Shown piece after piece: positions 179 through 57,847 of a stretch of 64,000 nucleotides of DNA (its first letter is position 1; every line of letters begins with the position of its first letter). The position numbers and the translations under genes are program-made. The notes under the pieces were generated by a model. It saw nothing but the letters and a program-made list of their open reading frames with translations, was not told the DNA's origin and did no database searches. Source of the stretch: Halobacterium rubrum (GTDB taxonomy: Archaea; Halobacteriota; Halobacteria; Halobacteriales; Halobacteriaceae); contig NZ_JAJQQZ010000002.1 in the NCBI RefSeq assembly GCF_021729015.1, forward strand, positions 372,001 through 436,000, in the 5' to 3' direction.

Positions 179-428
179 GGGTAATCTGCTCCGTTGGTCT
201 GTATTGGAGCTAACGCACAATATTATTGCGGCAGGTAAAAGAATGTCGTTTCTTGTGCACTCGTCGAACATCCGAGGCAGCGTGAGGTGGGCCAAAATGC
301 GTACAAAGCACCCTATTCGAGACATCCACAGTCGTTCTGCGTTTCTACCGCTCCAATTGTATTGTGCGCTTTGTGGATTTCTATGCAAACTCTTTTGTGC
401 GTCCATCCGGTAGCCGGGAGTGCACGAC
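179..428. promoter_or_regulatory. Divergent promoter region of the sulfur block
   Basis: About 250 AT-richer bases separate two divergent sulfur genes. The text CACAATATTATTG near 217-229 holds a CAAT-N3-ATTG inverted repeat facing the TusA-like gene, and ATTGTATTGTG near 357-367 faces the dioxygenase. Both resemble the ATTGT elements upstream of 4284 and 6224, but the match is loose. No ORF in the gap looks coding. Confidence 0.35.
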
Positions 429-1622: not shown

Positions 1623-1630
1623 CCACGCCG

Positions 1631-2188
1631 ATGGTCGCTGACCCAGTCCCGCTGCTGTCAGCCGCCGAGCTGTTCCCCAACGGCATCAGCCGGTACGCCG
1701 TCGGCGGCCTGCTGGTCGGCCTCGGCGCGCTCGTCATCTACGTCGGCACCGGTATCCCCGCCGGCGCGAGCACGTTCCTCGAGTCGACGCTGTCGTACGT
1801 CTCCGACCAGTCGCGGTTCCAGCAGTACGTCGGCTCCCGGGACTGGCGCGTGCTGTTCACGCTCGGCATCGTCCTCGGCGGGACGCTGTTCGCCGCCACG
1901 GTGCAGTCCGGCGTCGTCACCACGTCGCTGTACGAGACCGGTAGCACGGGCGAGCTGTACGAGGTCGCGGGCGTGACGCTCTGGTCGACGACCGTCCAGC
2001 CGTGGCGGCTGTTCCTCGGCGGCATCCTCGTCGGCGTCGGCACCCGCGTCGGCAAGGGCTGTACGTCCGGCCACGGCGTCTGCGGCGTCGGCTCGGCGTC
2101 GAAGACGTCGCTGGTCGGCGTCGCGACGTTCCTCGCCGTCGCCATCGGGACCGCTCAGGTCGTCGCCGCTCTGGGGGTGAGCCCGTAA
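1631..2188 (+). CDS. YeeE/YedE-family sulfur transporter, first half
   Basis: A 185-residue integral membrane protein with four or five hydrophobic stretches. The signature VGKGCTSGHGVCG near residues 138-150 is the conserved Cys-bearing motif of YeeE/YedE (TsuA-like) transporters, which take up thiosulfate or related sulfur compounds. The protein is about half the size of fused bacterial members. The second half is encoded at 2319-2780, as is usual in archaea. It begins eight bases after the dioxygenase stop, so co-transcription is likely. Substrate is inferred from the family. Confidence 0.85.
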   Translation: MVADPVPLLSAAELFPNGISRYAVGGLLVGLGALVIYVGTGIPAGASTFLESTLSYVSDQSRFQQYVGSRDWRVLFTLGIVLGGTLFAATVQSGVVTTSLYETGSTGELYEVAGVTLWSTTVQPWRLFLGGILVGVGTRVGKGCTSGHGVCGVGSASKTSLVGVATFLAVAIGTAQVVAALGVSP

Positions 2189-2318
2189 TGCGCGAGACGC
2201 GAGCACAGCGAGGCGCGAACGGGGTGAGCCCCTCGGAGAGCGAACGGCGAACGGACGTGAGCCGTGAGCAGCGAGCGTCTCGAACCGCGCGAGCGGGAGC
2301 GACAGGAGGGAGCGACAC
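2189..2318. repeat. Purine-rich GAGCG-type low-complexity spacer
   Basis: This spacer between the two transporter halves consists of imperfect GCGAG/GAACG/GAGCG repeats with a small hairpin (GGGGTGAGCCCC). Such stretches are common between haloarchaeal genes. It reads open in several frames but has no protein-like composition. Its 3' end supplies GGAGGGA, a good ribosome binding site for the next gene. Confidence 0.45.
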
Positions 2319-2780
2319 GTGAGCGACGACCGACATCCGCTGTTCAAGCCGCTGATATTCCTCGGCGGCATCGTGTTCGGGTTCGGACTCGGATTCAGTC
2401 AGATGGCACGTCCGGAAGTCGTCCTGGACTTCCTCCAGTTCGAGGACTTCGGGCTGCTGTTCGTGATGTTCGGCGCGGCGGTGGTCTCGGGAATCGCCTT
2501 CGCGGTGATGCCCCGGATTCGCGACCGGGCGCCCCTGACGGGCGACCGGTACGAGCGCCGCCTGAAGCCGTTCGACCGGAACGTCCTCGTCGGTGGCGCC
2601 ATCTTCGGCGTCGGCTGGGGGCTCTCGGGCATCTGTCCGGGCGCCGCCTACGCGAGCCTCGGCGTCGGCAACGTCACCATCCTCTGGGCGCTCGCCGGGA
2701 TGTTCCTCGGCGCGTACGCCCAGGGAGTCTACCGGAGTCGCGCGACTGCCTCCGACGCCGCGCCAGCGGGCGCAGACTGA
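2319..2780 (+). CDS. YeeE/YedE-family sulfur transporter, second half
   Basis: The 153-residue protein starts with GTG, preceded by GGAGGGA. It is hydrophobic with about four membrane segments. Near residues 96-108 it carries WGLSGICPGAAYA, the second conserved Cys motif of the YeeE/YedE fold. Together with the upstream gene it would form the two-part pore in which paired cysteines relay a sulfur substrate. The polar C-terminal tail is short and acidic. Family assignment is firm. The exact sulfur species is not determinable from sequence. Confidence 0.85.
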   Translation: MSDDRHPLFKPLIFLGGIVFGFGLGFSQMARPEVVLDFLQFEDFGLLFVMFGAAVVSGIAFAVMPRIRDRAPLTGDRYERRLKPFDRNVLVGGAIFGVGWGLSGICPGAAYASLGVGNVTILWALAGMFLGAYAQGVYRSRATASDAAPAGAD

Positions 2781-2823
2781 TACCGCGCTACCCCGCCGCA
2801 ATCACCCACTTCCCCACCTACTG

Positions 2824-4002
2824 ATGGAGCCCTCCACACTCGCTCTGTTCGTCGTCGCCGGTCTCGCTAGCCTGTTCATGGCGTGGGTCATCGGCGCCGG
2901 GTCCAGCGGCGCGACGCCGTTCGCGCCCGCCGTCGGTGCCAACGCCGTCTCGACGATGCGGGCGGCGTTCGTCGTCGGCGTCTTCGGCTTCGCCGGCGCC
3001 GTCGTGCAGGGCGCAAACGTCTCGGAAGCCGTCGGCAGCGGCCTCGTCGGCGGCGTCAGCCTCCCCGCGACCGGCGTGATTCTCGTGCTGTTCGTCGGCG
3101 CCGGGCTGATGGCCGTCGGCATCGTGACCGGCTACCCGATAGCGACGGCGTTCACCGTCACGGGGTCGGTCGTCGGCGTCGGCCTCGCGCTCGGCGGGAC
3201 GCCGGTCTGGGGGAAGTACCAGCAGATCGCCGCCGTCTGGGTGGCGACACCGTTCGTCGGCGGCGGCATCGCGTACGCCATCGCGAGCGTGCTCCCCCGG
3301 ACGGACGTCCCGGAGCGGTACAGCGTCGCGCTGCTCGCGGGACTGGTCGGCGCCGTCCTCGCCAACGTCGAGTTCGCGTACCTCGGCCCCGGCAGCACGC
3401 CGGACTCGGTCGCCGGAGTGGCGACACGAGCGCTCCCGGTCGACGGCCTGCTCGCGGCAGTCCTCGTCTCGGTGGCCGTGGCGGGCACCGTCGCCGCCGT
3501 CGTCTCCTGGGACGTCGGCCGCGACTTGCGGGGCGGACTGCGGCGGGTGCTACTGACGATGGGGTCGCTGGTGGCGTTCTCCGCTGGCGGCAGTCAGGTC
3601 GGGCTGGCTGTCGGACCGCTGTTGCCCATCCTCGACGACGTCGGCGGCGTGGCGTCCCTGACGGCGGTGCTGGTCGGCGGCGGGTTCGGGATGCTGGTCG
3701 GCTCGTGGACCGGTGCGCCGCGGATGATCAAGTCGCTGGCCCAGGACTACTCCTCGCTGGGGCCGCGGCGCTCGATCGCCGCGCTCGTGCCGTCGTTTCT
3801 CGTCGCGCAGGTCGCCGTCCTGCTGGGCGTGCCCGTCTCGTTCAACGAAATCGTGGTGAGCGCCATCATCGGCGCCGGCGCCGCCGTCGGCGGCGGCGAT
3901 GCCGTGAGCGCTCGCAAGGTCGGGCTCACCGTCGGCGCGTGGGCGGGGTCGTTCGTACTCGCGTTCGTGCTCGGGTACGGCGTCGCGGCGCTCGCGCTGT
4001 AA
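2824..4002 (+). CDS. PiT-family (PHO4) permease, phosphate or sulfate
   Basis: A 392-residue membrane protein with ten or more hydrophobic segments and the duplicated PiT signature: GAGSSGATPFAPAVGANAV near the N-terminus and GAGAAVGGGDAVSARKVGL near the C-terminus. PiT proteins are cation-coupled phosphate transporters, and some (CysP type) carry sulfate. Its place in a sulfur operon, with a second and different PiT at 27361-28536, makes sulfate or thiosulfate a reasonable guess here. An upstream in-frame extension to 2593 overlaps the previous gene and is not protein-like, so the ATG at 2824 is preferred. Confidence 0.8.
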   Translation: MEPSTLALFVVAGLASLFMAWVIGAGSSGATPFAPAVGANAVSTMRAAFVVGVFGFAGAVVQGANVSEAVGSGLVGGVSLPATGVILVLFVGAGLMAVGIVTGYPIATAFTVTGSVVGVGLALGGTPVWGKYQQIAAVWVATPFVGGGIAYAIASVLPRTDVPERYSVALLAGLVGAVLANVEFAYLGPGSTPDSVAGVATRALPVDGLLAAVLVSVAVAGTVAAVVSWDVGRDLRGGLRRVLLTMGSLVAFSAGGSQVGLAVGPLLPILDDVGGVASLTAVLVGGGFGMLVGSWTGAPRMIKSLAQDYSSLGPRRSIAALVPSFLVAQVAVLLGVPVSFNEIVVSAIIGAGAAVGGGDAVSARKVGLTVGAWAGSFVLAFVLGYGVAALAL

Positions 4003-4181
4003 CTCTGTCTGGTTCTCACACAGCTACCGACTTCCGTTCGCGTTCGGACGGGCCCGGTCCCGTGCGCGCGCTGGCACCGCAGACCGCCCCTGAGCGGTGG
4101 CGCTGTCCGTCGCTTTCGTGCGGTCGTGTCCGCACCGTGGGCCGTGTACGTTGCTCGTAACGTATGGAGTACTGCACCAGA

Positions 4182-4215
4182 TAGTATTGTACTACAATCC
4201 CAAAACCATTAAATA
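4182..4215 (+). promoter_or_regulatory. Operator-BRE-TATA block upstream of the TauE operon
   Basis: TAGTATTGT is followed by a small inverted repeat ATTGT-ACT-ACAAT (4186-4198), then TCCCAAAACC (BRE-like) and TTAAATA (4209-4215). The same arrangement with the same spacing recurs at 6167-6200 before thioredoxin. About 25 of 34 positions are identical, including every base of the two flanking blocks. This suggests one regulator controls both units. Confidence 0.65.
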
Positions 4216-4283
4216 GCGTAGCCAGTTAGCCGGAGTCGAGTAGAAATTCATGACTCACGCAATACCGCAGGAGGTGACAGTCA

Positions 4284-4433
4284 GTGCTCGAACTCGGTAA
4301 CGCGACCGGCGTGACCGGCGCCGCGACCGTCGTTGGACTCGTCCTGCTCGAAGCAATCGTACTGTACGTCGTCTACGGCGGGCTCGAGCGGTTCCTCGGC
4401 CCCGCGCTCGTCGACGCGGTGAGCGGCCGATGA
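4284..4433 (+). CDS. Small single-span membrane protein next to TauE
   Basis: A GTG at 4284 preceded by GGAGGTGA (4270-4277) opens a 49-residue protein. It has a short N-terminus, one strongly hydrophobic helix (residues about 9-32, core VVGLVLLEAIVLYVVYG) and a short tail. Its stop overlaps the start of the TauE/SafE gene in ATGA, so translation is coupled. I recall small haloarchaeal membrane proteins of this kind (DUF7512-like) beside TauE exporters. The name is from memory and tentative. It may be an accessory subunit of the exporter. An ATG at 4250 gives only 16 codons in another frame. Confidence 0.7.
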   Translation: MLELGNATGVTGAATVVGLVLLEAIVLYVVYGGLERFLGPALVDAVSGR

Positions 4434-5467
4434 CCGCGGAGCTGTTCGGCGTCGCCGCCACCACCCTCGCCCTGTTCACGGGGTTCGGACTGCTCGTCGG
4501 CCTCCTCTTTGGCTTCTTCGGGATGGGCGGGTCGTTCCTCGTCACGCCCGCGCTGATGGTGATGGGCTACGAGACCGACGTCGCCGTGGCCTCAGGGCTC
4601 GCATTCGTGTTCGCCACGTCCGTCATCGCGACCCTGAAACACCGCGACCTCGGGCAGGTCGACTACAAACTCGGCGTGCTGATGATCGCCGGCACCACGG
4701 CCGGCATCGAAGTCGGGAAGATCGGCCTGCACTACCTCCAGTCCATCGGGCTGGCCGACACCGTCGTCAGCGTCATCTACGTCGGCCTGCTCGGCGGTAT
4801 CGGGGCGTTCATCACCTACCAGGCGACGAAGGGCGACGGCGGCGGCGGCCTCGAACACGACGCCGACGGCGAGGTCGACGCCGACGACGTCCCCGACATC
4901 GCGAAGACTATCCAGTCCTACCGCGTGCCACCGATGATTAGCCTGCAGGGCGGCATCACCGTCTCGCTGTGGATGATTCTGGCGGTGGCGTTCGCCACGG
5001 GCCTGCTGTCGGGGTTCCTCGGCGTCGGCGGCGGTTTCATCCGCATGCCCGCGCTGTTCTACCTCATCGGCGTCCCGGTCCCCATCGCCGTCGGCACCGA
5101 CCTGTTCGAGATCGTGTTCTCGGGCGGCATCGGGAGCTTCCTGTACGCCATGGACGGCGCCGTCGACCTCTCCATCGTGGCACCGCTGCTCGCCGGTAGC
5201 GCGCTCGGCGCGCGGGTCGGCGCCGCCGCCACCAGCATCGTCGACGAGGACGAGATCAAGGTGTACTTCGGCGTGATGTTGCTGCTCGGCGCGCTCGCCG
5301 TCGCCGTCCGGAAGATCGGGAACTTCGCGGATATCCCGGTGCTCCGGCAGGTGTCGCTGGTCATCATCCTCGGCGCGGCGGCGCTGGTCGCCGGCGCCGT
5401 GGTCGTGAGTTCGATTCGCGCGCTCCGCGAGGAGGAGTCGTCGCCGACGCCCAGCACCGCGGACTGA
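4430..5467 (+). CDS. TauE/SafE-family sulfite/organosulfonate exporter
   Basis: A 345-residue protein with the two TauE/SafE repeats: GLLFGFFGMGGSFLVTPAL near the N-terminus and GLLSGFLGVGGGFIRMPAL after a central acidic loop (about residues 134-160). About eight to nine membrane helices are visible. Known members export sulfite, sulfoacetate or related anions, or import them. Translation is coupled to the small membrane protein upstream. With the persulfide dioxygenase nearby, sulfite export is the simplest reading. Expression is probably governed by the conserved block at 4182-4215. Confidence 0.85.
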   Translation: MTAELFGVAATTLALFTGFGLLVGLLFGFFGMGGSFLVTPALMVMGYETDVAVASGLAFVFATSVIATLKHRDLGQVDYKLGVLMIAGTTAGIEVGKIGLHYLQSIGLADTVVSVIYVGLLGGIGAFITYQATKGDGGGGLEHDADGEVDADDVPDIAKTIQSYRVPPMISLQGGITVSLWMILAVAFATGLLSGFLGVGGGFIRMPALFYLIGVPVPIAVGTDLFEIVFSGGIGSFLYAMDGAVDLSIVAPLLAGSALGARVGAAATSIVDEDEIKVYFGVMLLLGALAVAVRKIGNFADIPVLRQVSLVIILGAAALVAGAVVVSSIRALREEESSPTPSTAD

Positions 5468-5521
5468 CGGGCCGCCACCGGCCAACCGAATTCGGTGGTC
5501 GGTCGTCCCACGCCCGTGGAA

Positions 5522-5548
5522 TTGTACGGAATCTACACAAGTCTTTTA
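5522..5548 (+). promoter_or_regulatory. Promoter of the HTH regulator
   Basis: Upstream of 5580 the text reads ATTGTACGGAATCTACACAA followed by a TATA-like CTTTTA near 5542-5547. ATTGTAC and CTACA are also parts of the element at 4182-4198, so the regulator may control itself. The match is weaker than between 4182 and 6167. Confidence 0.4.
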
Positions 5549-5579
5549 CCGGCGAGGTGCGTACGCACACCCGATAACG

Positions 5580-5987
5580 ATGCCAGATTCGATGTCCGAA
5601 CAGCTCCGGCGGGACATGGAGTGCGAGGGGCTCCTCGAGTGCTTCCACGGGCTCAAACAGCTCGACCGCGAGGTCTTCCAGACACTCGTCGGCACCGGAG
5701 AGCCGCTGACGGTCGACGAGATCGCCGACCACGTCGACCGCGAGCGCTCGACCGCCTACCGCGCGGTCCAGCGACTCCTCACGGCCGGCTTCATCCAGAA
5801 AGAGCAGGTCAACTACGACCAGGGCGGCTACTACCACGTCTACAAGCCGACCGACCCCGCCGAAATCGCCGACAACATGCAGCGACTCCTCAACGACTGG
5901 TACGCAAAGATGGGGCAGCTCATCCAGGAGTTCGAAACGAAGTACGAGGGCGAGCAGGACGCCAGCGCCCCTCCGGTCGGGGACTGA
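5580..5987 (+). CDS. HTH transcriptional regulator of the sulfur/thioredoxin block
   Basis: The 135-residue protein has a winged helix-turn-helix centred on residues 40-75 (LTVDEIADHVDRERSTAYRA), followed by a wing and a helical, acidic C-terminus. It resembles TrmB/GbsR-like single-domain haloarchaeal regulators. It has two cysteines near the N-terminus (residues about 14 and 20), which could sense thiol state, but this is only a possibility. It lies between the TauE and thioredoxin units, whose promoters share an element. It is the natural candidate to bind that element and its own promoter. Confidence 0.75.
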   Translation: MPDSMSEQLRRDMECEGLLECFHGLKQLDREVFQTLVGTGEPLTVDEIADHVDRERSTAYRAVQRLLTAGFIQKEQVNYDQGGYYHVYKPTDPAEIADNMQRLLNDWYAKMGQLIQEFETKYEGEQDASAPPVGD

Positions 5988-6166
5988 GCCGGCCGGCCGC
6001 GGCGTCGTTCCGTGCTCCGGCGCTCTCGCGCTCGAGTTCGCACTCCCGCCCGCCGTCTCTCCTGCGGTCTCTCTCTGGTACCCATTTCCTCACGCGAGTG
6101 TCGAGGGGTCACGTTCCCCAGACCAGCCGTTGCCGTGGTCGCCATGAGCACTCGACGCCCGCCTAG

Positions 6167-6200
6167 TAGTATTGTGTAGTTTTCCCAAAACCCTTAATTA
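6167..6200 (+). promoter_or_regulatory. Operator-BRE-TATA block upstream of trxA-trxB
   Basis: TAGTATTGT, then TCCCAAAACC and TTAATTA, in the same order and spacing as at 4182-4215. The TATA box ends 24 bases before the thioredoxin ATG, which fits a leaderless transcript starting at or next to the start codon. Confidence 0.65.
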
Positions 6201-6223
6201 CCGCTGGTGCCTACGTCGAGTCG

Positions 6224-6583
6224 ATGTCAACTGACACCGCAGCCGACGCGACCGCACCGACCCCCACCGAACCCGTCCACGTCGACGGCACCGCTGCCCT
6301 CGACGCCGCCGTCGACGACCACGACGTCGTGCTCGTCGACTTCTACGCGGACTGGTGTGGTCCCTGCCAGATGCTCGAACCGGTCGTCGAGACCATCGCC
6401 GCCGAGACCGACGCCGCCGTCGCCAAAGTCGACGTCGACGCCAACCAGCCGCTGGCCGCCGAGTACGGCGTCCGCGGCGTCCCCACCCTCGTCCTGTTCA
6501 GCGACGGCGAACAGGTCGAGGAGATCGTCGGCGTCCAGCGCGAGGACCAGTTGCGGTCGCTCGTCGGCCAGTACACGGAGTAG
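6224..6583 (+). CDS. trxA: Thioredoxin
   Basis: A 119-residue protein with a 20-residue Ala/Thr-rich N-terminal extension and a complete thioredoxin fold. The active site WCGPC is at residues 44-48, and the cis-Pro motif GVPTL follows. Thioredoxin reduces protein disulfides and is itself reduced by the FAD enzyme encoded immediately downstream: its stop codon is directly followed by the next ATG. The promoter matches that of the TauE unit, so it is likely co-regulated with sulfite/sulfur handling. A second thioredoxin is at 20523-20858. Confidence 0.92.
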   Translation: MSTDTAADATAPTPTEPVHVDGTAALDAAVDDHDVVLVDFYADWCGPCQMLEPVVETIAAETDAAVAKVDVDANQPLAAEYGVRGVPTLVLFSDGEQVEEIVGVQREDQLRSLVGQYTE

Positions 6584-7624
6584 ATGTCCGGCGAGACAGT
6601 CCGAGACCTCGTGGTCGCCGGGTCGGGCGTCGCCGGCCTCTCCGCGGCCGTCTACGCCGCGCGCGCCGACCTCGACCCGCTCGTCCTCGAGGGCGACGAA
6701 CCCGGCGGCCAGCTCACCCTGACCACCGACGTCGAGAACTTCCTCGGGTTCCCCGAGGGCGTCGGCGGCATGGAGCTCGTCCAGCGCGGCAAAGACCAGG
6801 CCCGCGAGTTCGGCGCCGAGTTCCGCCACGGCCGCATCGTGGCCGCCGACCTCGACGGCGGGCAGCCGTTCGCTCTCGAGCTCGCCGACGGTGAGACGCT
6901 CCGGACGCGCGCGCTCGTCGTCGCCACCGGCGCCAGCGCGCGCTGGGTCGGCGCCGAGAACGAGGACGAACTGATGGGCCACGGCCTCTCGACGTGCGCG
7001 ACCTGCGACGGCGCGTTCCACCGCGGCGACGACGTGCTGGTCGTCGGCGGCGGCGACAGCGCGATGGAGGAGGCGCTGTTCCTCGCGAAGTTCGCCGACA
7101 GCGTCACCGTCGTCCACCGGCGCGAGGAGCTGCGTGCGTCCGAGATCATGGCCGACCGCGCCCGCGACCACGACGCCGTCGACTTCCGGTGGAACACCGA
7201 GCTGGACGCCATCCACGGCTCCCAGGAGACGGGCGTGACGGACGCGACGCTCGTCTGTCACCCCGACGGCCACCCCCGCGAGAAGGCCGCGAACGGAGTC
7301 GACGTCGAGACGGAGACCGTCGACGTCGGCGGCGTCTTCTACGCCGTCGGCCACACGCCCAACACGGGCTTCCTCGACGGCACCGGCGTGGAGCGCGACG
7401 ACGACGGCTACCTCCACACCGAACGCGACGAGAACGGCCGGCCGACCGCCCGGACGGCCGTCGACGGCGTGTTCGCCGCGGGCGACGTCGCCGACCCCCG
7501 GTACCGGCAGGCCATCACGTCGGCCGGCACCGGCAGCATGGCCGCTCTCGACGCCGAAACCTACCTCGAATCCCTCGACCGCGAGGGCAGCGAACAGCAG
7601 GCGACCGAAGCCCCGATGGCCTGA
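6584..7624 (+). CDS. trxB: Thioredoxin reductase
   Basis: A 346-residue low-molecular-weight flavoprotein reductase. It has an FAD dinucleotide motif GSGVAGLSAAVYAARA at the N-terminus, redox motif CATCDGAF with cysteines 138 and 141, an NADPH motif GGGDSAMEE, and a C-terminal GDVADPRYRQ FAD motif. It transfers electrons from NAD(P)H to thioredoxin. It abuts trxA with no gap and is probably translated from the same message. The short Gln/Glu-rich tail is unremarkable. Confidence 0.92.
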   Translation: MSGETVRDLVVAGSGVAGLSAAVYAARADLDPLVLEGDEPGGQLTLTTDVENFLGFPEGVGGMELVQRGKDQAREFGAEFRHGRIVAADLDGGQPFALELADGETLRTRALVVATGASARWVGAENEDELMGHGLSTCATCDGAFHRGDDVLVVGGGDSAMEEALFLAKFADSVTVVHRREELRASEIMADRARDHDAVDFRWNTELDAIHGSQETGVTDATLVCHPDGHPREKAANGVDVETETVDVGGVFYAVGHTPNTGFLDGTGVERDDDGYLHTERDENGRPTARTAVDGVFAAGDVADPRYRQAITSAGTGSMAALDAETYLESLDREGSEQQATEAPMA

Positions 7625-7636
7625 CCCCCACGGGCC

Positions 7637-8095
7637 CTACATCCCGCTCTCACTCGTTCTCGACCCCGCGCTCCGCGTCATGACGACGCCGCTGACGAGC
7701 ATGAGCGCAGCTAGCGCGACCATTCCGGCGTCCCACCCCATGCCGGCGGTCGCCGTGCTGCCGCCCATGCCGCCCCCGGACCCCATACCGCCGGTCATTC
7801 CCGAACCGTCGGACATCCCCGACCCGCTGCCGTCGGCCAGCAGCCCGGCCCCCAGCAGCGCCTGATTCAGCAGCATCACGGCGGCGTACGCGACCATCAG
7901 GGGGCCGCTGGCGCTTCCGAGCCGGTCGGCGTACCCGGTCAGGAGGACGGCGCCGTGGGCGACGACGACGACGCCGAGCACGCTCATCAGCCAGCCACTG
8001 GCGGCCATCCGGGACGCGGTCGTCGCGCTCCACAGCGAGTACAGGCCGGACGCGAACGCGATGGCAGCGCCGTACAGGCGCGTGTTCGAGACCAT
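7637..8095 (-). CDS. Met/Gly-rich four-helix membrane protein (DUF3179 module, copy 1)
   Basis: A 152-residue protein with about four membrane helices (residues 5-30, 35-52, 65-85 and 120-140). Between helices 3 and 4 is a flexible Gly/Ser/Met loop with repeated GM or GSGM units (about residues 88-120). Methionine-rich loops of this kind bind soft metals such as Cu(I) in other proteins, but no known family is recognised here. A paralogue with the same layout lies at 57380-57847. Both adjoin DUF3179 genes. The start ATG at 8093-8095 follows an upstream frame that is not protein-like. Confidence 0.7.
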   Translation of the reverse strand: MVSNTRLYGAAIAFASGLYSLWSATTASRMAASGWLMSVLGVVVVAHGAVLLTGYADRLGSASGPLMVAYAAVMLLNQALLGAGLLADGSGSGMSDGSGMTGGMGSGGGMGGSTATAGMGWDAGMVALAALMLVSGVVMTRSAGSRTSESGM

Positions 8096-8197
8096 ATCGA
8101 CGCCTGTCCGCCGACACACCAAATACTCCGGGGTGGTAGCTGGTCGAACCGACACGGCAGCGAGTGGTATTAAGTCCGGAAGCCGGTATCGTGACGC

Positions 8198-9253
8198 GTG
8201 CACGTTCGACAGGTCATTCCCCGGGACGCGATTCCGAGCGTCGACGACCCGACGTTCGGCCAGCAGTACGACGGCGGCGCCGCGGACACGGTCGTGGTCG
8301 TCGAGGCTGCGTCCGGGGCCCGCGCGTACCCGACGCGGTACCTGAACTACCACGAGATCGTCAACGACGACATCGGCGTCGCGCCGGGCGAGTCCGGCGG
8401 CGAGAGCGGCGCCGCGGACCCGGTGGCCGTGACGTGGTGTCCGCTCTGCGGGAGCGCCGTCGTCTACGACCGCGAGGTCGACGACGACAGCGAGGACCGC
8501 GTGCTGGAGTTCGGGGTGTCGGGGAAGCTCGCCGACGACGATCTCGTCATGTACGACCGGGAGACGGGCAGCGAGTGGAAGCAGTCCAGCGGCGAGTGCA
8601 TCGCCGGCGACCTCGAGGGGGCGTCGCTGTCGGTCCGGCCGGCGTCGATGGTCTCCTACCGGGAGTTCCGGAACGCTCACCCGGAGGGCGTCGTGCTCCA
8701 GCCGCCGGGCGGCCAGAGCGAGGCCGCGGGCGACGGCGACGACCCGGAGCCGATCGACTACGACGACGCCCCCTACAACGACTACGTCACCGGGGAGGGG
8801 TTCGGGCTGGCCGTCCACCGGGGGAGCGGCAGCGGCGAGCGAGACTGGGACCGCAGCGACGACCTCGACCCGAAGAGCGTCGTTCTCGGCGTCGAACTCG
8901 GCGACGACGCCGTCGGCTTCCCGATGGCACGCGTCCGGGACGCCGGCGGCGTCGTCCGCGCGACCGTCGGCGGCGAGGACGTCGTCGTGTTCGCCACCGA
9001 GTCCGCTGGCGTCCACGCCTACGCCGACCCCGGAATCGCGTTCGCGTCGAGCGACGGCGACGGGGGCGGACGTGAGAGCGAGGAGGGCGACGACGACGAC
9101 GCGGCCGGGTTCGACGGCGACGGTGCCGTCTGGAACCCGGCGACCGGGCGAGCGAGCGACGGCCGGCGCCTCGACCGCGTGCCGTCCCGGCGGCTGTTCG
9201 CGTTCGCGTGGCAGGACGACCACGGCCCAGACAGCTTCTACGACCCGACGTAA
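8198..9253 (+). CDS. DUF3179 protein, cytoplasmic type (copy 1)
   Basis: A 351-residue acidic protein without a signal peptide. It starts with GTG and reads VRQVIPRDAIPSVDD. The DUF3179 core contains YHEIVNDD, the motif TWCPLCGSAVVYDR (C81, C84), then FGVSGKLADDDLVMYDRET. The C-terminus ends in GRRLDRVPSRRLFAFAWQDD. DUF3179 has no established biochemical role that I can cite. The paired cysteines suggest metal or redox chemistry. Close paralogues are at 29127-30080 and 52722-53660. An Asp/Glu/Gly-rich insertion (about residues 270-300) is specific to this copy. Confidence 0.85.
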   Translation: MHVRQVIPRDAIPSVDDPTFGQQYDGGAADTVVVVEAASGARAYPTRYLNYHEIVNDDIGVAPGESGGESGAADPVAVTWCPLCGSAVVYDREVDDDSEDRVLEFGVSGKLADDDLVMYDRETGSEWKQSSGECIAGDLEGASLSVRPASMVSYREFRNAHPEGVVLQPPGGQSEAAGDGDDPEPIDYDDAPYNDYVTGEGFGLAVHRGSGSGERDWDRSDDLDPKSVVLGVELGDDAVGFPMARVRDAGGVVRATVGGEDVVVFATESAGVHAYADPGIAFASSDGDGGGRESEEGDDDDAAGFDGDGAVWNPATGRASDGRRLDRVPSRRLFAFAWQDDHGPDSFYDPT

Positions 9254-9273
9254 CACCGCAGGCGGCCCCGAAC

Positions 9274-9885
9274 CTACAGCAGTTCGGGGTCGACCTCGCG
9301 GCCGACGAGCAGCAGCGACCCGACGAGCATCGCGACGGCGACGGGGACGAGATACTGGAAGCCGGTGATGACGGTGGCGCTGGCCTGCACGCCGACGACG
9401 AGCAGAATCGTCGGTCCACAGCAGGCCGCGCCGGAGAGCAGCGCCGGAATCCCGGCGAGGACGCCGGTGGAGCTCTCCAGCCCGCAGGCCCGCGGCTGGA
9501 CGAGTCCGAGGTACGTCAGCGCGAAGTTCGCGCCGACGAGCACCGAGAGGACGGCGGCGAGCGCGGCGTTCAGCGGCGAGAACAGGTAGGTGACCGGGCC
9601 GGCGGCGACGACGGCGACGGCGCCGAACCGGAAGAACCCGAGGCTCGCCACCGCCCGGGAGAGGTCGTCGGCGACCCGGACCGACAGCGGACCGCTGCTG
9701 CTGCCGGTGGCGACCGAGAGGTCGCCGACGGTGGCGAGGTAGACGAGGAAGTAGCCGACGGCCGCCAGGGCGAACACCGCCCGGGCGTCCCACCGGCGAC
9801 CGAGGACGCCGAGCGCGGCGCGCGTCCGGGCGAGCACGCCCGGCCCGTCGCGGGTCGCCGTCGGCGTCGCAGCGCTACTGGACAT
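9274..9885 (-). CDS. Polytopic membrane protein with vicinal Cys pair (DUF3179 module, copy 1)
   Basis: A 203-residue protein with about five membrane segments. It contains QPRACGLES (C134) and LLSGAACCGPTILLVVG (C155, C156). A Cys-Cys pair followed by Gly-Pro in a membrane helix resembles the metal-accepting helix of MerT-type mercury transporters, but the rest is not MerT-like and the similarity is only suggestive. The start overlaps the end of the upstream DUF3179 lipoprotein gene by 11 bases, so translation is coupled. The paralogue at 56751-57353 has the same coupling. A joint role in moving a metal or thiol across the membrane is inferred. Confidence 0.75.
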   Translation of the reverse strand: MSSSAATPTATRDGPGVLARTRAALGVLGRRWDARAVFALAAVGYFLVYLATVGDLSVATGSSSGPLSVRVADDLSRAVASLGFFRFGAVAVVAAGPVTYLFSPLNAALAAVLSVLVGANFALTYLGLVQPRACGLESSTGVLAGIPALLSGAACCGPTILLVVGVQASATVITGFQYLVPVAVAMLVGSLLLVGREVDPELL

Positions 9886-11005
9886 AGCGTTCGGTGTCCG
9901 GGTAGAAACCGATCCACGCGAACCACATCGCGTCGAACGCCAGCACGCGGTCAAGCGGGAGCGAATCCGGGTCGTGGACCTCGCCTTCCGGGCCCTCGAC
10001 CGTTCCGTCGTCGGCGTCGTACTCGAAGTCGCGCTCGTCGGGGTTCCGGTACACGTAGCCGGTGTCCAGGGCGTCGTCGTAGACGGCCAGCACGGGCGTT
10101 CCGGCGAGGTCACCGGCGACGAGGCGGTCGTCCCGCAGTCGGTCCTTCCCGAACGCGACCGCGCCCTCCGGCGTCCGGGCGCCCAGCACGACGGCCTTCG
10201 GCGGCAGGGTGTCGTCGTCGGACAGCGACGCGAACATCGGCGACGACTCGGGCGCGTAGTACCCCCGACGGGGGTTGTACGAGCCGTACGGGTCGCGGTC
10301 GTAGTTCTTCGCGAATCCGGTGTCCCGGGAGAGCACGGTCGTGTCCGGGTGTGTCGACGACCAGCGCTCCCACGTCGTCCAGACGACCCGGAACTCCGCC
10401 AGCGACCGGGTTTCGGGCTCCTCGTTCCACGGGCCGGGGACGGCGGTGGCAAGCACCTGCGGCCACCACGTCTCCGTGGCCCGGTCGTACATGATGAGGT
10501 TGTTGTTGACGAGCCGGCCGGAGACGCCGAACGTCGTGTCGCCGCGCTCGAAGCCCATCGCGGTGCCGGTCAGCGGACAGTACGTGACGCTCACGGGCTC
10601 CCCCGCGACGACGTCGTTGCAGATCTCGTGGGAGACGAGAATCGACTGGGGGTACGCCCGCGCCTCGCCGCCCCTCGTGAGACCGAACACCGGGTCGCCG
10701 GGGTCGAATCGGCCCGCGGCCTCGTCGGCACTCTCGAAGGCAGGGTCGTCGATGGAGGGAATGCCGTCTTTCGGTGGACCGCCCGACACCGCCTGCTCCC
10801 GAATCGACGCGGGTGACGACGGCAGTGGGAGCGCGGCGTCGCTGGTCGGCGGCCCAGCCCGACCGGTCGACGTCGTCGGTGTCGACTCCGTCGAAGTCGA
10901 CCCGGAGCCGCCGGCCGCCGGCCCGCGCCCGAGGCAGCCGGCGGCTCCAGCGACGCCGGCGCCGAATCCCGCGAGAACCGCCCGCCGGGTTGTGCGCCGT
11001 CTCAT
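9875..11005 (-). CDS. DUF3179 Tat lipoprotein (copy 1)
   Basis: A 376-residue exported protein. It has a twin-arginine signal (RRRTTRRAVLAG) and a lipobox ending in AAGC with C24, then a Ser/Thr/Gly-rich tether (about 25-60). The DUF3179 core carries SHEICNDVV, VTYCPLTGTAMGF and FGVSGRLVNNNLIMYDR. Unlike the cytoplasmic type, one cysteine sits in HEIC and one in CPLTG. The protein would be anchored outside the membrane, facing the Cys-Cys membrane protein encoded by the overlapping downstream gene. The paralogue at 55628-56758 is also exactly 376 residues. An ATG at 11005 is chosen over an upstream start because it opens directly on the signal. Confidence 0.88.
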   Translation of the reverse strand: MRRRTTRRAVLAGFGAGVAGAAGCLGRGPAAGGSGSTSTESTPTTSTGRAGPPTSDAALPLPSSPASIREQAVSGGPPKDGIPSIDDPAFESADEAAGRFDPGDPVFGLTRGGEARAYPQSILVSHEICNDVVAGEPVSVTYCPLTGTAMGFERGDTTFGVSGRLVNNNLIMYDRATETWWPQVLATAVPGPWNEEPETRSLAEFRVVWTTWERWSSTHPDTTVLSRDTGFAKNYDRDPYGSYNPRRGYYAPESSPMFASLSDDDTLPPKAVVLGARTPEGAVAFGKDRLRDDRLVAGDLAGTPVLAVYDDALDTGYVYRNPDERDFEYDADDGTVEGPEGEVHDPDSLPLDRVLAFDAMWFAWIGFYPDTERYVQ

Positions 11006-11082: not shown

Positions 11083-11565
11083 TCACGACGGGTCTCGCAC
11101 CCACTCCTCGAGCGTGAACCGGTCGAACGCCTCGCTGTCGGCGAGTCGCCAGCTGTCGCGGTCCCAGTCGGGGAAGTACGTGTCGCCGTCGTACTCGCCG
11201 TGGACCCTGCTGAGCACCATCCGGTCCACGTGCGGCTGGAAGAGCTCGTAGACGCCGGCGCCGCCGATGACGAACGCGCGGTCCGCGCCCAGCGACCCGA
11301 CCACGTCGACTGCGTCCTCCACGCCCGACGCGTGGTGGGCCGTCTCCACGTCGAACTCTCGCTGTGACCGGCTGAGCACGACCTGCGCGCTGCCCGGGAG
11401 GTCGTCCAGCATCGACTCGAAGGTCACCCGGCCCAGAATCACCGGGTCGTCGGCGATTCGCTCGCGGTACTGCCGCTTGTCCGCCTCGATGCTCCGCCAC
11501 GGCAGCTCGCCGTCCCGCCCGATGACGCGGTTCTCGGCGAGCGCGGCGACGGACGTCAGTTCCAT
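11083..11565 (-). CDS. folA: Dihydrofolate reductase (copy 1)
   Basis: A 160-residue type-I DHFR. It has [18 protein letters not shown] at the N-terminus, [10 protein letters not shown] and the nucleotide-binding [12 protein letters not shown]. It reduces dihydrofolate with NADPH for one-carbon metabolism. It sits directly downstream of the DUF3179 module on the same strand, about 80 bases upstream of that module's Tat lipoprotein gene. A second, clearly homologous DHFR lies at 38154-38636. The region after the active site is shorter than in bacterial enzymes, as usual for haloarchaea. Confidence 0.9.
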
Positions 11566-29126: not shown

Positions 29127-30080
29127 TCACGCGTCGTGGTGGTAAAACGCGTCTTCGCCGTGGTCGTCCTGCCACGCGAACGCGAACAACCGACGTGACG
29201 GGACGCGTTCGAGTCGTCGACCATCCGCGCTGCGTCCTGTCGCTACGTTCCACGACGTGCCGTCACCGACGATGTCGCCCTCCTCCAGATCGAACTCGTA
29301 GCCGGGGTCTTCGTACGCGTGGATGCCATCGGCAGTCGCAAACACGACGATCGACCGGTCGCCGACGTGGTCGGTCACGACGCCTCCGGCATCTCGCACG
29401 TCGGGAAGTGGATAGCCGACTGCGTCGGCGCCCTGTTCGACCCCGAGTACGACTGTCTTCGGGGCCAGGTCGTCTCGGTTCCACTCGCGGCTGTCGCTGG
29501 TGCCGCGGTGTGCAGCGAGTCCGAACCCCTCGCCGTCGACGTACTCGTCGTACGGCGACTCGTCGTAGTCGATCGACGCAGGTTCATCGCCGTCGCTCGC
29601 GGCTTCGCTTTCGCCACCCGGTGCCTGTAGCACGACGCCGTCTGGGTACGTCTCGCGGAATTCCTGCCAGGAACCCAGTGACGCTGGCCGCACCGTGAGC
29701 GATGTGTCCTGGAGTTCGCCGCGGATACATTCGCCGAGCGACTGCTTCCACTCGCTCTCGGTCTGGCGGTCGTACATGACAAGATCGTCGTCAGCGAGCT
29801 TTCCGGAGACGCCGAACTCGAGCGTTTGCCCGTTCACACGTCTGTCGTAGACGACAGCGCTACCACACAGCGGACACCACGTCACTGCGACCGGGTCGCC
29901 GTCCACTACGTCGTTGACGATCTCGTGGTAGTTCAGGTACCGCACGGGGTACGCCCGTGCCGGGTCGCACGTATCGAGGACGACCACGTCGTCCTCGCCG
30001 TCGCCGTCGTAAGTCGCGCCGAACTCGGGGGCGTCGACGCTCGGAATCGCGTCCCGAGGGATGACTTGCCGGACGTTCAC
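29127..30080 (-). CDS. DUF3179 protein, cytoplasmic type (copy 2)
   Basis: A 317-residue protein lacking a signal peptide. A GTG at 30080 gives NVRQVIPRDAIPSVDAPEFG, aligned with the starts of the 8198 and 52722 proteins. The upstream ATG would add ten unlike residues. Core motifs are YHEIVNDVV, VTWCPLCGSAVVYDR (C69, C72), FGVSGKLADDDLVMYDRQT and C-terminal RLERVPSRRLFAFAWQDD. It stands alone, without the exported partner or the two membrane proteins. Its function is unknown. Confidence 0.85.
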   Translation of the reverse strand: MNVRQVIPRDAIPSVDAPEFGATYDGDGEDDVVVLDTCDPARAYPVRYLNYHEIVNDVVDGDPVAVTWCPLCGSAVVYDRRVNGQTLEFGVSGKLADDDLVMYDRQTESEWKQSLGECIRGELQDTSLTVRPASLGSWQEFRETYPDGVVLQAPGGESEAASDGDEPASIDYDESPYDEYVDGEGFGLAAHRGTSDSREWNRDDLAPKTVVLGVEQGADAVGYPLPDVRDAGGVVTDHVGDRSIVVFATADGIHAYEDPGYEFDLEEGDIVGDGTSWNVATGRSADGRRLERVPSRRLFAFAWQDDHGEDAFYHHDA

Positions 30081-30261
30081 GGCCCCGGCTACTCGCCACC
30101 CTTGCATAGAACTACTGCCAACGCTCGAGACATCCGGCTCTCCCCGCTGCTTGTGCGAGGTTGATTACGTGCGACCAAGTAACAGGGGCCATGGAACCGG
30201 TCGACTCCTCGGTCGTCGAAGTCCCTCTGGGACCGGCGCGTAGAGCCGTCTCCGGGGTGCG

Positions 30262-52721: not shown

Positions 52722-53660
52722 ATGCACGTCGAGTCGGTGCTGCCCCGGGACGCGATTCCGAGCGTCGACGCCCCCGAGTTCGGCCCGAGTTACTTCGGCG
52801 ACCCCGGCGACCAGGTCGTCGTGGTCGACGCCGACCCGCCGCGCGCGTACCCGATTCGGCTGTTGAGCTACCACGAGGTCGTCAACGACGTCCTCGACGC
52901 TGACGGCGACCGAACGCCGATCGCCGTGACGTGGTGTCCGATCTGCTGGAGCGCCGTCGTCTACGACCGCACAGTCGCCCGCCAGACGCTGGAGTTCGGG
53001 GTCTCCGGGAAGCTCGCCGACGACGCGCTCGTCCTGTACGACCGCCAGACCGACAGCGAGTGGAAGCAGACGACGGGCGAGGCGTTCGCGGGCGACCTCG
53101 AGGGCGCGAAACTCGACGTGCTGCCCGCGTCGCTCGTCCCCTACGAAGCGTTCCGGGACGCCAACCCGAACGGCGTCGTCCTCCAGCCGACCCATGGCCG
53201 CGATGGAACCCAGTCGCCGCGAACGCACTACGACATGGAACCCTACGAGCGGTACGCGGAGAGCGAACCGTTCGGGCTGTACGGCATGCGCGGCGAGGGC
53301 CGCCAGCGGTCCTGGAACCGGGCGGACCTCGACCCGAAAGACGTCGTTCTGGGTGTCGAAGCCGACGGCGAGGCAGTCGGGTACCCCGCCCGGCGCGTCG
53401 AGGCGGCCGGCGGCGTCGTCGCGGACACCGTCGGTGGCCTGGCGGTCGTCGTGATAGCCGCTGACGGCGGCATCTCCGCCTTCGAAGACCCGGGATTCGC
53501 GTTCGAGCGCCGCGACGACGACCTGGCCGCAGACGGCGCGACGTGGGACCCAGCGACCGGACGAGCGAGCGACGGTCGTCGCCTCGACCCCGTTCCCTCT
53601 CGCCGTCTGTTCGCGTTCGCCTGGCAGGACGCTCACGGGGAGGACGCGTTCTACGCCTGA
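52722..53660 (+). CDS. DUF3179 protein, cytoplasmic type (copy 3)
   Basis: A 312-residue protein starting HVESVLPRDAIPSVDAPEFG. Motifs: YHEVVNDVL, VTWCPICWSAVVYDR (Cys72, Cys75, with Trp replacing the usual Gly), FGVSGKLADDALVLYDRQT and RLDPVPSRRLFAFAWQD. It has no signal peptide, so it is cytoplasmic like the 8198 and 29127 copies. It is the most divergent of the three. It lies about 2 kb upstream of the exported DUF3179 (55628), with a reductase between them. Confidence 0.85.
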   Translation: MHVESVLPRDAIPSVDAPEFGPSYFGDPGDQVVVVDADPPRAYPIRLLSYHEVVNDVLDADGDRTPIAVTWCPICWSAVVYDRTVARQTLEFGVSGKLADDALVLYDRQTDSEWKQTTGEAFAGDLEGAKLDVLPASLVPYEAFRDANPNGVVLQPTHGRDGTQSPRTHYDMEPYERYAESEPFGLYGMRGEGRQRSWNRADLDPKDVVLGVEADGEAVGYPARRVEAAGGVVADTVGGLAVVVIAADGGISAFEDPGFAFERRDDDLAADGATWDPATGRASDGRRLDPVPSRRLFAFAWQDAHGEDAFYA

Positions 53661-53769: not shown

Positions 53770-54792
53770 ATGACAGACGACCTGTCCGTCGAGGAGTACG
53801 AGATAGTCGTCGTCGGCGGCGGCCCCGCCGGCCAGACCGCGGCGCTGTACAGCACGCGACTCGGCCACCGGACCGCGCTCGTCGACCGCGGCGGCGGCCG
53901 GGCGGCGATGATGCAGGAGGTCCACAACGTCCTGGGCGTCCGAGAGGAGACCAGCGGGAACGAGTACCTCGGCGTCGGGAAAGAGCAACTCGAGGAGTAC
54001 GGCTGTGACATCGTCCGGGACGTGCTGTCGTCGTGTTCGCGGACCGACGACGGCCGATTCGAGCTGTCCGGCGGCGACACGGCCTACCGGGCGGAGTACG
54101 TCGTGCTGGCGACCGGCATGAACGACGTGCGCCCGGAGCCCCCGCTGCCCCGGACGGGACGGGGCCTCCACTACTGCCTGCACTGTGACGCCCACATGTT
54201 CGTCGACGAGTCCGTCTACGTGATGGGGCACGCTGAGAGCACCGCCCACGTCGCCGGCATCATGCTGAACTTCACCGACGAGGTGGACGTGCTCACCCGC
54301 GGCGAGGATCCGGAGTGGAGCGACGAGACCGCGGCGATGCTCGACGGCCACCCCATCGACGTGATCCACGAGGACGTCACCGGCGTGCAGAACGGCGAGG
54401 ACGGCTGGCTGAAGGCCCTCGAGTTCGAAGACGGCACCGTCCGCGAGTACAAGGGCGGGTTCGCGATGTACGGCGCCGAGTACAACAACGGGCTGGCGCG
54501 CGAACTCGGCGTCGACATCAACGACGACGGCACCGTGGAGGTCGGCGACCACGGTCAAACCTCCGTCGACGGCGTGTACGCCGTCGGCGACCTGACGCCC
54601 GGCCACAACCAGGTCCCCATCGCGCTCGCGGACGGTGCGAAAGCCGGCATCGACGTCCACTTTTCGCTCCGGGACTTCCCACGGGAACCGGACGCCATCG
54701 AGGAGGCAGGGCCGGTCCGTTGCGAGGAGGTACCAGGGATTCCCGACGAACTCCTCGAACAGGCGGTCTCCTTCCACACCTACGACGACTGA
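53770..54792 (+). CDS. Thioredoxin-reductase-like flavoprotein
   Basis: A 340-residue NAD(P)/FAD protein with VVVGGGPAGQTAALYSTRLG, HYCLHCDAHMFVD (Cys136, Cys139 in CxxC), a NAD(P)-type domain and TSVDGVYAVGDLTPGHNQ. It resembles thioredoxin reductase in order of domains, but the second dinucleotide motif is changed (VYVMGHAEST instead of GGGDSA), so NADPH binding or partner may differ. It sits between cytoplasmic and exported DUF3179 genes and could serve that module. This link is by position only. Confidence 0.8.
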   Translation: MTDDLSVEEYEIVVVGGGPAGQTAALYSTRLGHRTALVDRGGGRAAMMQEVHNVLGVREETSGNEYLGVGKEQLEEYGCDIVRDVLSSCSRTDDGRFELSGGDTAYRAEYVVLATGMNDVRPEPPLPRTGRGLHYCLHCDAHMFVDESVYVMGHAESTAHVAGIMLNFTDEVDVLTRGEDPEWSDETAAMLDGHPIDVIHEDVTGVQNGEDGWLKALEFEDGTVREYKGGFAMYGAEYNNGLARELGVDINDDGTVEVGDHGQTSVDGVYAVGDLTPGHNQVPIALADGAKAGIDVHFSLRDFPREPDAIEEAGPVRCEEVPGIPDELLEQAVSFHTYDD

Positions 54793-55627: not shown

Positions 55628-56758
55628 ATGAACAGGGAATCGTCCCGACGGGCGTTCCTCGCGAGCGTAGGGGTGGGGACGGCGGCGCTCGCCGGCTGTC
55701 TCGGCGGGCGGAATGGCACTGGTGACGCCAGCGGCGCCTCGACCTCCAGCGAGGAGACGACGGCGGCAGGTGGCACCCAGACGGGACCACCGTCGCGCCC
55801 GGACGCGCTCCCGCTGCCGTGGCCGGCAGGCGACGTCGCGGGCCGGGCAGTCTCCGGCGGCCCGCCGAAGGACGGCATCCCCTCCATCGACGACCCGAGC
55901 TTCGAATCCGCCGATGACGCCGACGACCACCTCGACCCCGGCGACCCGGTGTTCGGGCTCGCGGTCGACGGCGACGTCCGCGCGTATCCCCAATCGATTC
56001 TGGTCGCCCACGAGATCTGCAACGACGTCGTCGCCGGCCGGCCGGTGAGCGTGACGTACTGCCCGCTGACCGGCACCGCGATGGGGTTCGAGCGCGGCGA
56101 AACCACCTTCGGCGTCTCCGGCCGCCTCGTGAACAACAACCTCGTCATGTACGACCGGGCGACCGAGACTTGGTGGCCCCAGGTGCTCGCGACCGGCGTC
56201 CCCGGGCCGTGGAACTCCCCGGAGGAGACGCGGTCGCTCCGGGAGTTCCGGCTCGTGTGGACGACCTGGGGGCGCTGGCGTGACCAGCACCCCGACACCG
56301 AGGTGCTCTCCCGGGACACGGGGTTCGCGAAGAACTACGACCGCGACCCCTACGGCTCGTACAACCCCCGGCGGGGCTACTACGAACCCGAGTCCGCGCC
56401 GATGTTCAGCTCGCCGGCCGACGACGACCGCCTCGCGACGAAGACCGTCGTGCTCGGCGCCCGAACGCCGGAGGGCGCGGTCGCCTTCGAGAAACACCGC
56501 CTCCGTAACGAACACCTCGTCACGGGCGACCTCGCGGGAACCCCGGTACTGGCTGTCTACGACGACGCCCTCGACACCGGCTACGTCTACCGGAACCCCG
56601 AGGACCGCGCGTTCGAATTCCGTGACGACGGCACCGTCGAGAGTGCGGACGGCGAGACGCACGACCCCACGTCGCTCCCGCTCGACCGAGTGCTCGCGTT
56701 CGACGCGATGTGGTTCGCGTGGAACGGCTTCTACCCCGACACCAGCCTCTATGCCTGA
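55628..56758 (+). CDS. DUF3179 Tat lipoprotein (copy 2)
   Basis: A 376-residue protein, equal in length to the 9875-11005 copy. Tat signal RESSRRAFLASVGVGTAALAGC (with lipobox Cys24), a Thr/Ser/Gly tether, then DUF3179 motifs AHEICNDVV (Cys131), VTYCPLTGTAMGF (Cys145), FGVSGRLVNNNLVMYDR and a WFAWNGFYPDT C-terminus. The outward-facing protein overlaps the Cys-Cys membrane protein gene by eight bases. The same coupled pair in the first module shows that the association is old and selected. Confidence 0.88.
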   Translation: MNRESSRRAFLASVGVGTAALAGCLGGRNGTGDASGASTSSEETTAAGGTQTGPPSRPDALPLPWPAGDVAGRAVSGGPPKDGIPSIDDPSFESADDADDHLDPGDPVFGLAVDGDVRAYPQSILVAHEICNDVVAGRPVSVTYCPLTGTAMGFERGETTFGVSGRLVNNNLVMYDRATETWWPQVLATGVPGPWNSPEETRSLREFRLVWTTWGRWRDQHPDTEVLSRDTGFAKNYDRDPYGSYNPRRGYYEPESAPMFSSPADDDRLATKTVVLGARTPEGAVAFEKHRLRNEHLVTGDLAGTPVLAVYDDALDTGYVYRNPEDRAFEFRDDGTVESADGETHDPTSLPLDRVLAFDAMWFAWNGFYPDTSLYA

Positions 56759-57353
56759 GTTGCGCCAGTCACCCACCCCAGCCGGCCCGAGCGTCCTCGC
56801 CCGAACGCGCGCCGCGCTCGGCGTCGTCGCCAGACGCCGGGACGCCCGCCTCGTCTTCGTCGCCGCAACCGTCGGCTATCTCCTCGTCTACCTCGCCACG
56901 GTCGGCGACCTCACGTTCGCGTCGGGCGGCCGCGGCCCCCTCTCCATCCGGGTCGCCGACGACCTCTCGCGAGCGTTCGCCAGCCTCGGTTTCTTCCGGT
57001 ACGGCGCGGTCGCCGTCGTGTCCGCCGGCCCACTCACGTACCTGTTCTCGCCGCTGAACGCCGCGCTCGCGGTCGGCCTCTCCGTGCTGGTCGGCGCGAA
57101 CCTCGCGCTCACCTACCTCGGACTCGTCCAGCCCCGAGCCTGCGGACTGGAGAGCTCGACTGGCGTCCTCGCCGGCGTCCCCGCACTGCTCTCCGGCGCG
57201 GCCTGCTGCGGACCGACGATACTGCTCGTCGTCGGCGTCCAGGCAAGCGCCACCGTCATCACGGGGTTCCAGTACCTCGTCCCCCTCGCCGTCGCGATGC
57301 TCGTCGCCTCGCTGCTGTTGATCGGCCGGCGCGTCGACCCCGCGCTCCTCTGA
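56751..57353 (+). CDS. Polytopic membrane protein with vicinal Cys pair (DUF3179 module, copy 2)
   Basis: A 200-residue paralogue of the 9274-9885 protein with the same five-helix profile. It shares QPRACGLESSTGVLAG (Cys131), LLSGAACCGPTILLVVG (Cys152, Cys153) and VQASATVITGFQYLVP, with near-identity over the C-terminal half. The ATG at 56751 overlaps the DUF3179 lipoprotein stop. The conservation of all three cysteines in both copies argues for function. The conserved core lies in about residues 85-200. Confidence 0.78.
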   Translation: MPELRQSPTPAGPSVLARTRAALGVVARRRDARLVFVAATVGYLLVYLATVGDLTFASGGRGPLSIRVADDLSRAFASLGFFRYGAVAVVSAGPLTYLFSPLNAALAVGLSVLVGANLALTYLGLVQPRACGLESSTGVLAGVPALLSGAACCGPTILLVVGVQASATVITGFQYLVPLAVAMLVASLLLIGRRVDPALL

Positions 57354-57379: not shown

Positions 57380-57847
57380 TCACATCCCGGACTCGCGGCG
57401 CGTCATGATGACGCCGCTGGCCAGCATCAACGCCGCAATCGCCACCATCCCGGCGTCGGCGCCCATCGCTGACGCCGCGTCCATCCCGCTCTGCATGCCG
57501 TCGTTCATCGACCCGCCGTCCATCATCCCGCCGTCGTTCATCCCGCCACCGGCCATTCCGTCTCCGAACGTGCTCGCCAGCCACGCCTGGTTCACCAGCA
57601 TCAGGACCGAATAGGCGATCATCAACGGGCCGCTCGCCCGCCCGAGCGCCGACGTCGCCGGCGTCACCAGGACGACGCCGTGGACGAGGACGACTGCGCC
57701 GAGCGCCGCCATGAACCACGCACTTCCCGACATCCCGGCCCCCGTCGTCGCCTGAAACAACGAGTACACCCCCGAAACGACGCCGATGCTCGCGCCGTAC
57801 AGCCGGGCCGTCGAGACGCCCTCTGCAGCACTCATCTGGTCGTTCAT
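57380..57847 (-). CDS. Met-rich four-helix membrane protein (DUF3179 module, copy 2)
   Basis: A 155-residue protein, paralogue of 7637-8095. It reads TARLYGASIGVVSGVYSLFQ and GRASGPLMIAYSVLMLVNQA, then a Gly/Asp/Met-rich loop (GMNDGGMMDGGSMNDGM) before the last helix ending MVAIAALMLASGVIMTRRES. The loop sequence differs from the first copy, but its Met-Gly character is retained, suggesting that the composition is what matters. Its orientation relative to the exported DUF3179 gene is convergent. Confidence 0.7.
   Translation of the reverse strand: MNDQMSAAEGVSTARLYGASIGVVSGVYSLFQATTGAGMSGSAWFMAALGAVVLVHGVVLVTPATSALGRASGPLMIAYSVLMLVNQAWLASTFGDGMAGGGMNDGGMMDGGSMNDGMQSGMDAASAMGADAGMVAIAALMLASGVIMTRRESGM

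Follow-up and report, generated by a model that had tools for sequence, protein, structure and literature searches.

Introduction

CcdA/DsbD thiol-electron relays likewise link membrane cysteines to an extracytoplasmic thiol protein, as the genes described here may do, and their paired cysteines lie on separate transmembrane (TM) helices. In MerT, Hg(II) is taken from a periplasmic thiol protein onto the Cys pair of TM1 (PMC5715351). Members of the DUF3179 family (PF11376) are found widely among bacteria and archaea, but no function has been assigned; the family includes natural selenoproteins and is catalogued with the selenocysteine (Sec) form UxxC/T (PMC9312934, PMC13188914). Here we describe the DUF3179 proteins of Halobacterium rubrum and a membrane protein with two adjacent cysteines (the Cys-Cys or CC protein) that accompanies the exported ones. 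They are encoded in a stretch of 64,000 nucleotides (contig NZ_JAJQQZ010000002.1, positions 372,001 to 436,000, forward strand; hereafter the window) with a haloarchaeal GC content of 67%.

A first-pass annotation of the window had proposed an undescribed module, present in two copies, of a cytoplasmic DUF3179, an exported DUF3179, a CC protein and a Met-rich membrane protein. The genes that it named, four for DUF3179 and two each for the CC and Met-rich proteins, are all present. Calling the module undescribed was mostly right for its function, but the DUF3179 family had already entered the selenoprotein catalogues cited above. On our analysis, only two of the four proposed genes form a unit, and the chemistry of that unit is better founded. 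New here are the tandem duplication of DUF3179, whose predicted halves best resemble Rieske folds, the match of its invariant Cys to the published Sec site, the confinement of the CPLT motif to the CC-linked clade, and the three invariant cysteines and weakly MerT-like hairpin of the CC protein.

The exported DUF3179 lipoprotein and the CC protein form a two-gene operon

In copy 1, the exported DUF3179 (9875..11005, minus strand; PF11376 E=1.8e-90) is a lipoprotein with a twin-arginine translocation (Tat) signal, containing both the Arg pair and a lipobox, and with the motif TYCPLTG. It is followed by the CC gene (9274..9885, minus strand). Copy 2 consists of the exported DUF3179 gene at 55628..56758 (plus strand; E=9e-94) and the CC gene at 56751..57353 (plus strand), whose product is 82% identical to that of copy 1. 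The two genes overlap by 11 bases in copy 1 and by 8 bases in copy 2, as had been noted before. The ratio of non-synonymous to synonymous substitution rates (dN/dS) between the CC copies is about 0.27, and both copies are under purifying selection.

Co-occurrence was surveyed in 116 haloarchaeal genomes (order Halobacteriales). The CC protein was found in 37 of them, all of which contain DUF3179, compared to 19 of the 79 genomes without CC (Fisher p=1.5e-16). Moreover, 37/38 CC genes directly follow a gene for an exported DUF3179 on the same strand, at 6-133 bases from match to match, and in 25/36 haloarchaeal pairs the two genes overlap by 1-11 bases, from CC start to DUF3179 stop. The same DUF3179 neighbour is present at 10 of the 11 CC loci on plasmids, the eleventh being a truncated orphan. 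No further conserved gene was found beside the pair around the CC loci. The exported DUF3179 lipoprotein and the CC membrane protein are a real unit, a two-gene operon, and this part of the first-pass annotation holds; the spacing of the genes indicates that they are translationally coupled. At one locus, in Halorarius halobius (L078, 11241-11723), the annotated CC start is too late: the tblastn match spans the query from end to end and runs into the DUF3179 gene.

Outside the Halobacteriales, the CC protein was not found in 247 genomes of the phylum, save for one weak match of 19 bits. A search of 80 bacterial DUF3179 loci gave no convincing match either (best E=0.025). The bacterial proteins have CPLC, and the CC gene accompanies them in none of the sampled loci.

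The pair is duplicated independently of its neighbours

The DUF3179 tree contains three haloarchaeal clades, namely exported proteins linked to CC (support 99), exported proteins without CC (96) and cytoplasmic proteins (100). The two exported copies of the window are sisters in the CC-linked clade, while the cytoplasmic copies at 8198..9253 and 52722..53660 (both plus strand) belong to different subclades. The Met-rich proteins (7637..8095 and 57380..57847, both minus strand) share 55% identity, and that of copy 1 is nearer to the protein of another genus than to that of copy 2. Because the exported copies are sisters while the neighbouring cytoplasmic and Met-rich copies are not, the pair, and not a four-gene block, was duplicated in this genome; the window does not hold two copies of one four-part module.

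The proposal that the four parts act together, with DUF3179 proteins inside and outside the cell and a Met-rich helper, was largely refuted by the survey, and we consider it very improbable. All four stand together twice in the window, and elsewhere in one genome only (G059). Of the 37 CC genomes, 12 have a cytoplasmic-type DUF3179, against 11 of the 79 others (p=0.02), and it lies near the pair in few; as it is missing from 25 CC genomes, a DUF3179 protein in both compartments is not a general design. The Met-rich family, found at good scores in 17 genomes, lies near DUF3179 in 3 of these and was associated neither with CC (p=0.27) nor with DUF3179 (p=0.44) across the 116 genomes. Synteny of the proposed partners is conserved for the CC protein but not for the other two. 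The four-part grouping is real but optional: the Met-rich proteins are neighbours and not module parts, and the cytoplasmic DUF3179 that converges with the copy-1 pair is a facultative neighbour. The layout of exported DUF3179, CC and convergent cytoplasmic DUF3179 recurs in G105 (L038) and in Halorarius halobius.

Met-rich homologues were also seen in other surroundings, where the adjacent genes were named by sight from their N-termini. In four genomes (L281-L284) the homologue lies beside a CopA-like P-type ATPase, which hints that it has its own role with copper, and at L287-L290 it neighbours a HemL-like gene in a housekeeping location.

DUF3179 proteins share a putative reactive site around one cysteine

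The window contains five DUF3179 proteins, the whole complement of the genome, which scored 214-315 bits with the PF11376 profile (curated cut-off 27). The four listed by the first-pass annotation have E-values of 1e-63 to 1e-94; it had overlooked the fifth, a cytoplasmic-type protein with CPLCG (29127..30107, minus strand). Three of the five have no signal peptide and two are the Tat lipoproteins. The motif CPLCG, given earlier for the cytoplasmic form, is found in 8198..9253, but 52722..53660 has CPICW and the exported forms have CPLTG. All five share the invariant H-E-N...C-P-L motif of the family, from which the CC-linked clade differs by its CPLT, its Tat lipoprotein signal and its adjacent membrane partner.

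Across 43 DUF3179 sequences, H128, E129, N132, C145 and P146 are invariant, and so are R156, an FGVSG segment, D176, W183 and Q185. Together they resemble a reactive site centred on a single Cys. The mature exported protein has one invariant Cys, and at L039 it has a single Cys in all. C145 corresponds to the Sec of some bacterial members (UxxC/T), the exact position being judged from the motif. Bacterial loci were scanned with a pattern that accepted either C or T at the second site; the motif could be recognised at 62 of them, and each of these has a second Cys (CPLC or CPIC). CPLC or CPIC is also found in all the cytoplasmic proteins, and all the exported proteins without CC, that were read from haloarchaea, and CPLT is confined to the CC-linked clade.

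The CPLC of nearly all other DUF3179 proteins, together with the UxxC/T catalogue entry, favours an electron (dithiol) relay. In such a relay, the CC protein would be reduced by cytosolic thioredoxin or TrxB and would itself keep the exported thiol reduced, and DUF3179 would be a surface thiol oxidoreductase or a peroxidase-like enzyme, by analogy with CcdA/DsbD and their extracytoplasmic partners. This explanation is kept alive because a TrxB-like flavin disulfide reductase is enriched in DUF3179 genomes: nine of the ten genomes with close homologues of the window gene (53770..54792, plus strand), a facultative associate, also have DUF3179 (p=0.006). The TrxB-like gene adjoins the pair in G059, and thioredoxin, redoxin and HxlR regulators occur in some neighbourhoods. 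However, when 35 CC loci were compared with 40 background stretches, thioredoxin, TrxB and redoxin were not general neighbours (0-2/35). In addition, the exported form retains one invariant Cys only, and a vicinal pair within one helix, as in the CC protein, is closer to MerT than to the separated pair of CcdA; no sequence match to CcdA/DsbD was reported. We regard the electron relay as possible but doubtful.

The two halves of DUF3179 matched each other in an hhalign profile comparison (98% probability, E=7e-14; reversed control 0.087), so the protein is an internal tandem duplication. In the AlphaFold2 (AF2) model of the copy-2 exported protein (predicted local distance difference test, pLDDT, 85.5), Rieske-fold chains matched both halves in all 50 of the matches listed by VIA-align. 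These best structural matches comprise Rieske [2Fe-2S] proteins and the cluster-less NirD, and with Z at most 6.3 a Rieske-like fold of the halves is only suggestive. DUF3179 differs from Rieske proteins in its tandem duplication and in the absence of the cluster ligands C-x-H and C-x2-H. Sequence homology was not detectable, as shuffled or reversed controls scored at least as well in hhalign with a small haloarchaeal Rieske set. An equation of CPLTG with Rieske box II was also rejected, since aligning NirD 4-104 with model residues 114-217 places CPLTG in a beta-hairpin before box I. Searches by sequence found no solved structures for DUF3179 or the CC protein. A structural match to the DUF3179 model was seen in a giant-virus protein (BFVD A0A1V0SD44, Indivirus ILV1; Foldseek E=3.6e-9).

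The CC protein has a weakly MerT-like hairpin

Four membrane helices (30-51, 101-126, 137-161 and 167-194) are predicted in the AF2 model of the copy-2 CC protein, which also serves for its copy-1 paralogue, and residues 54-99 form a beta segment that separates TM1 from TM2. Only C131, C152 and C153 are invariant, the latter two being vicinal within helix 137-161. Since the N-terminus is basic it was placed inside, and on this basis the beta segment would face outward and C131 the cytoplasm.

An hhalign comparison of the CC protein with MerT gave E=0.0012 (reversed controls 0.13-0.7). The MerT profile (PF02411) was reached by 24/36 CC members at E<=1, the best of them at E=1e-4 and under the cut-off; the window protein scored 14.4 bits, short of the curated 32.9. 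The last two CC helices thus bear a weak resemblance to the TM1-TM2 hairpin of MerT: in both proteins a membrane helix with a vicinal Cys pair and Gly-Pro precedes a second helix, and both stand alongside an extracytoplasmic thiol protein. The CC protein differs in its two extra helices and predicted extracellular beta domain, and in a single cytoplasmic Cys before the hairpin where MerT has a pair after it. Furthermore, its partner is DUF3179 and not MerP, and MerA is usually absent. Because the MerT cut-off was not reached and the cytoplasmic Cys pair is missing, the sequence is best described as MerT-like, not MerT. The earlier soft-metal idea gains modest independent support from this hairpin as far as the CC protein is concerned; the Met-rich protein is usually unlinked. 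Fold matches in the PDB were scattered helical proteins and uninformative.

A possible transmembrane thiol relay

The likeliest function that we infer for the pair is a transmembrane thiol relay, plausibly MerP/MerT-like, a reading we hold to be a serious possibility though short of probable. The exported monothiol C145 would capture a thiol-reactive ligand outside and hand it to Cys152-Cys153 in the third membrane helix of the CC protein, from where it would pass to Cys131 at the cytoplasmic face. The hand-over would resemble that from MerP to MerT, with the membrane cysteines of the CC protein substituting for the second Cys lost from CPLC. A soft metal or metalloid would be the likeliest cargo, with reducing equivalents next, and the cytoplasmic CPLC DUF3179 and the TrxB-like reductase may be optional downstream helpers. 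The pair might even be an unrecognised relay, in which a duplicated, cluster-less Rieske-fold Cys/Sec protein has lost its second Cys and gained an obligate MerT-like partner, making it a new soft-ligand importer or envelope reductase; this remains rather speculative.

Several observations weigh against the thiol relay. MerA above its cut-off was found in 5/37 CC genomes and 4/79 others (p=0.11), which is not significant, and it was not adjacent to CC in the CC loci examined; a standard mer system with MerA was rejected on this count and a role for mercury itself is not established. Metal genes do not recur consistently near the CC loci. On the cytoplasmic side the CC protein has the single C131 where MerT has a pair, its AF2 model has a pLDDT of just 77, and its orientation comes from charge alone. 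Since the change from CPLC to CPLT and the linkage to CC each appear once in the tree, in one clade, they are best counted as a single evolutionary event and not as a repeated correlation. Finally, in the lone exception to adjacency (G013, a fragmented assembly), the CC gene and three CPLT DUF3179 genes are on separate contigs. A copper ATPase neighbourhood was also discarded, with 2/35 CC loci against 1/40 background stretches.

The neighbourhoods also bear on sulfur handling, in which the pair would move a sulfane-sulfur or a thiosulfate/sulfite ligand with its cysteines as persulfides. In Haloferax larsenii, TusA-DsrE-YeeE adjoin DUF3179, TauE and DsrE occur in Halorarius and Halorubrum plasmids, and rhodanese-metallo-β-lactamase (MBL), YeeE and TauE genes lie upstream of copy 1. 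An MBL-rhodanese homologue is present at 5/35 CC loci and 0/40 background stretches. However, TauE, YeeE, TusA and DsrE are missing from nearly all CC loci (0-1/35), and we consider sulfur handling unlikely. The idea that CC loci generally lie among sulfur or thioredoxin genes was rejected in this comparison.

The survey gives DUF3179 an obligate partner and a clear-cut difference between CPLC and CPLT, together with three cysteines that can be tested and a model of its domain duplication. With these, the label 'unknown function' is converted into specific gene-deletion and mutagenesis experiments.

Neighbouring genes

Ahead of copy 1, the window carries a sulfur/thiol cluster (420-7624) of rhodanese-MBL, a YeeE-like transporter, TauE, a TrmB-family regulator, thioredoxin and TrxB. 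The TrmB protein recalls OxsR, a thiol-based regulator (PMC9426492). Two dihydrofolate reductase-like paralogues are also present (11083-11565, minus strand; 38154-38636, plus strand). At the far end, a mercuric reductase, MerA, that exceeds the TIGR02053 cut-off (62077-63534, minus strand) is divergent from an RrpA/RrpB-like HxlR regulator (63612-63956, plus strand) that has a CPLTG string in its N-terminus too.

An HxlR-type regulator with an LEVWCAG..WCP N-terminus adjoins DUF3179 in several haloarchaea (L035, L036, L081, L082, L245, L250) and was seen in 0/40 background stretches. With neighbours named by sight, bacterial DUF3179 genes (L145, L150, L152, L180, L189) lie near genes for extracytoplasmic function (ECF) sigma and anti-sigma factors or near apparent ArsS-type radical S-adenosylmethionine (SAM) and selenodomain transferase genes. 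Nitrospira-type DUF3179 (L155, L156, L159, L162) is preceded by a small protein of about 84 amino acids with an HxGC/DxC start, and in three of these four loci a protein of about 160 amino acids follows.

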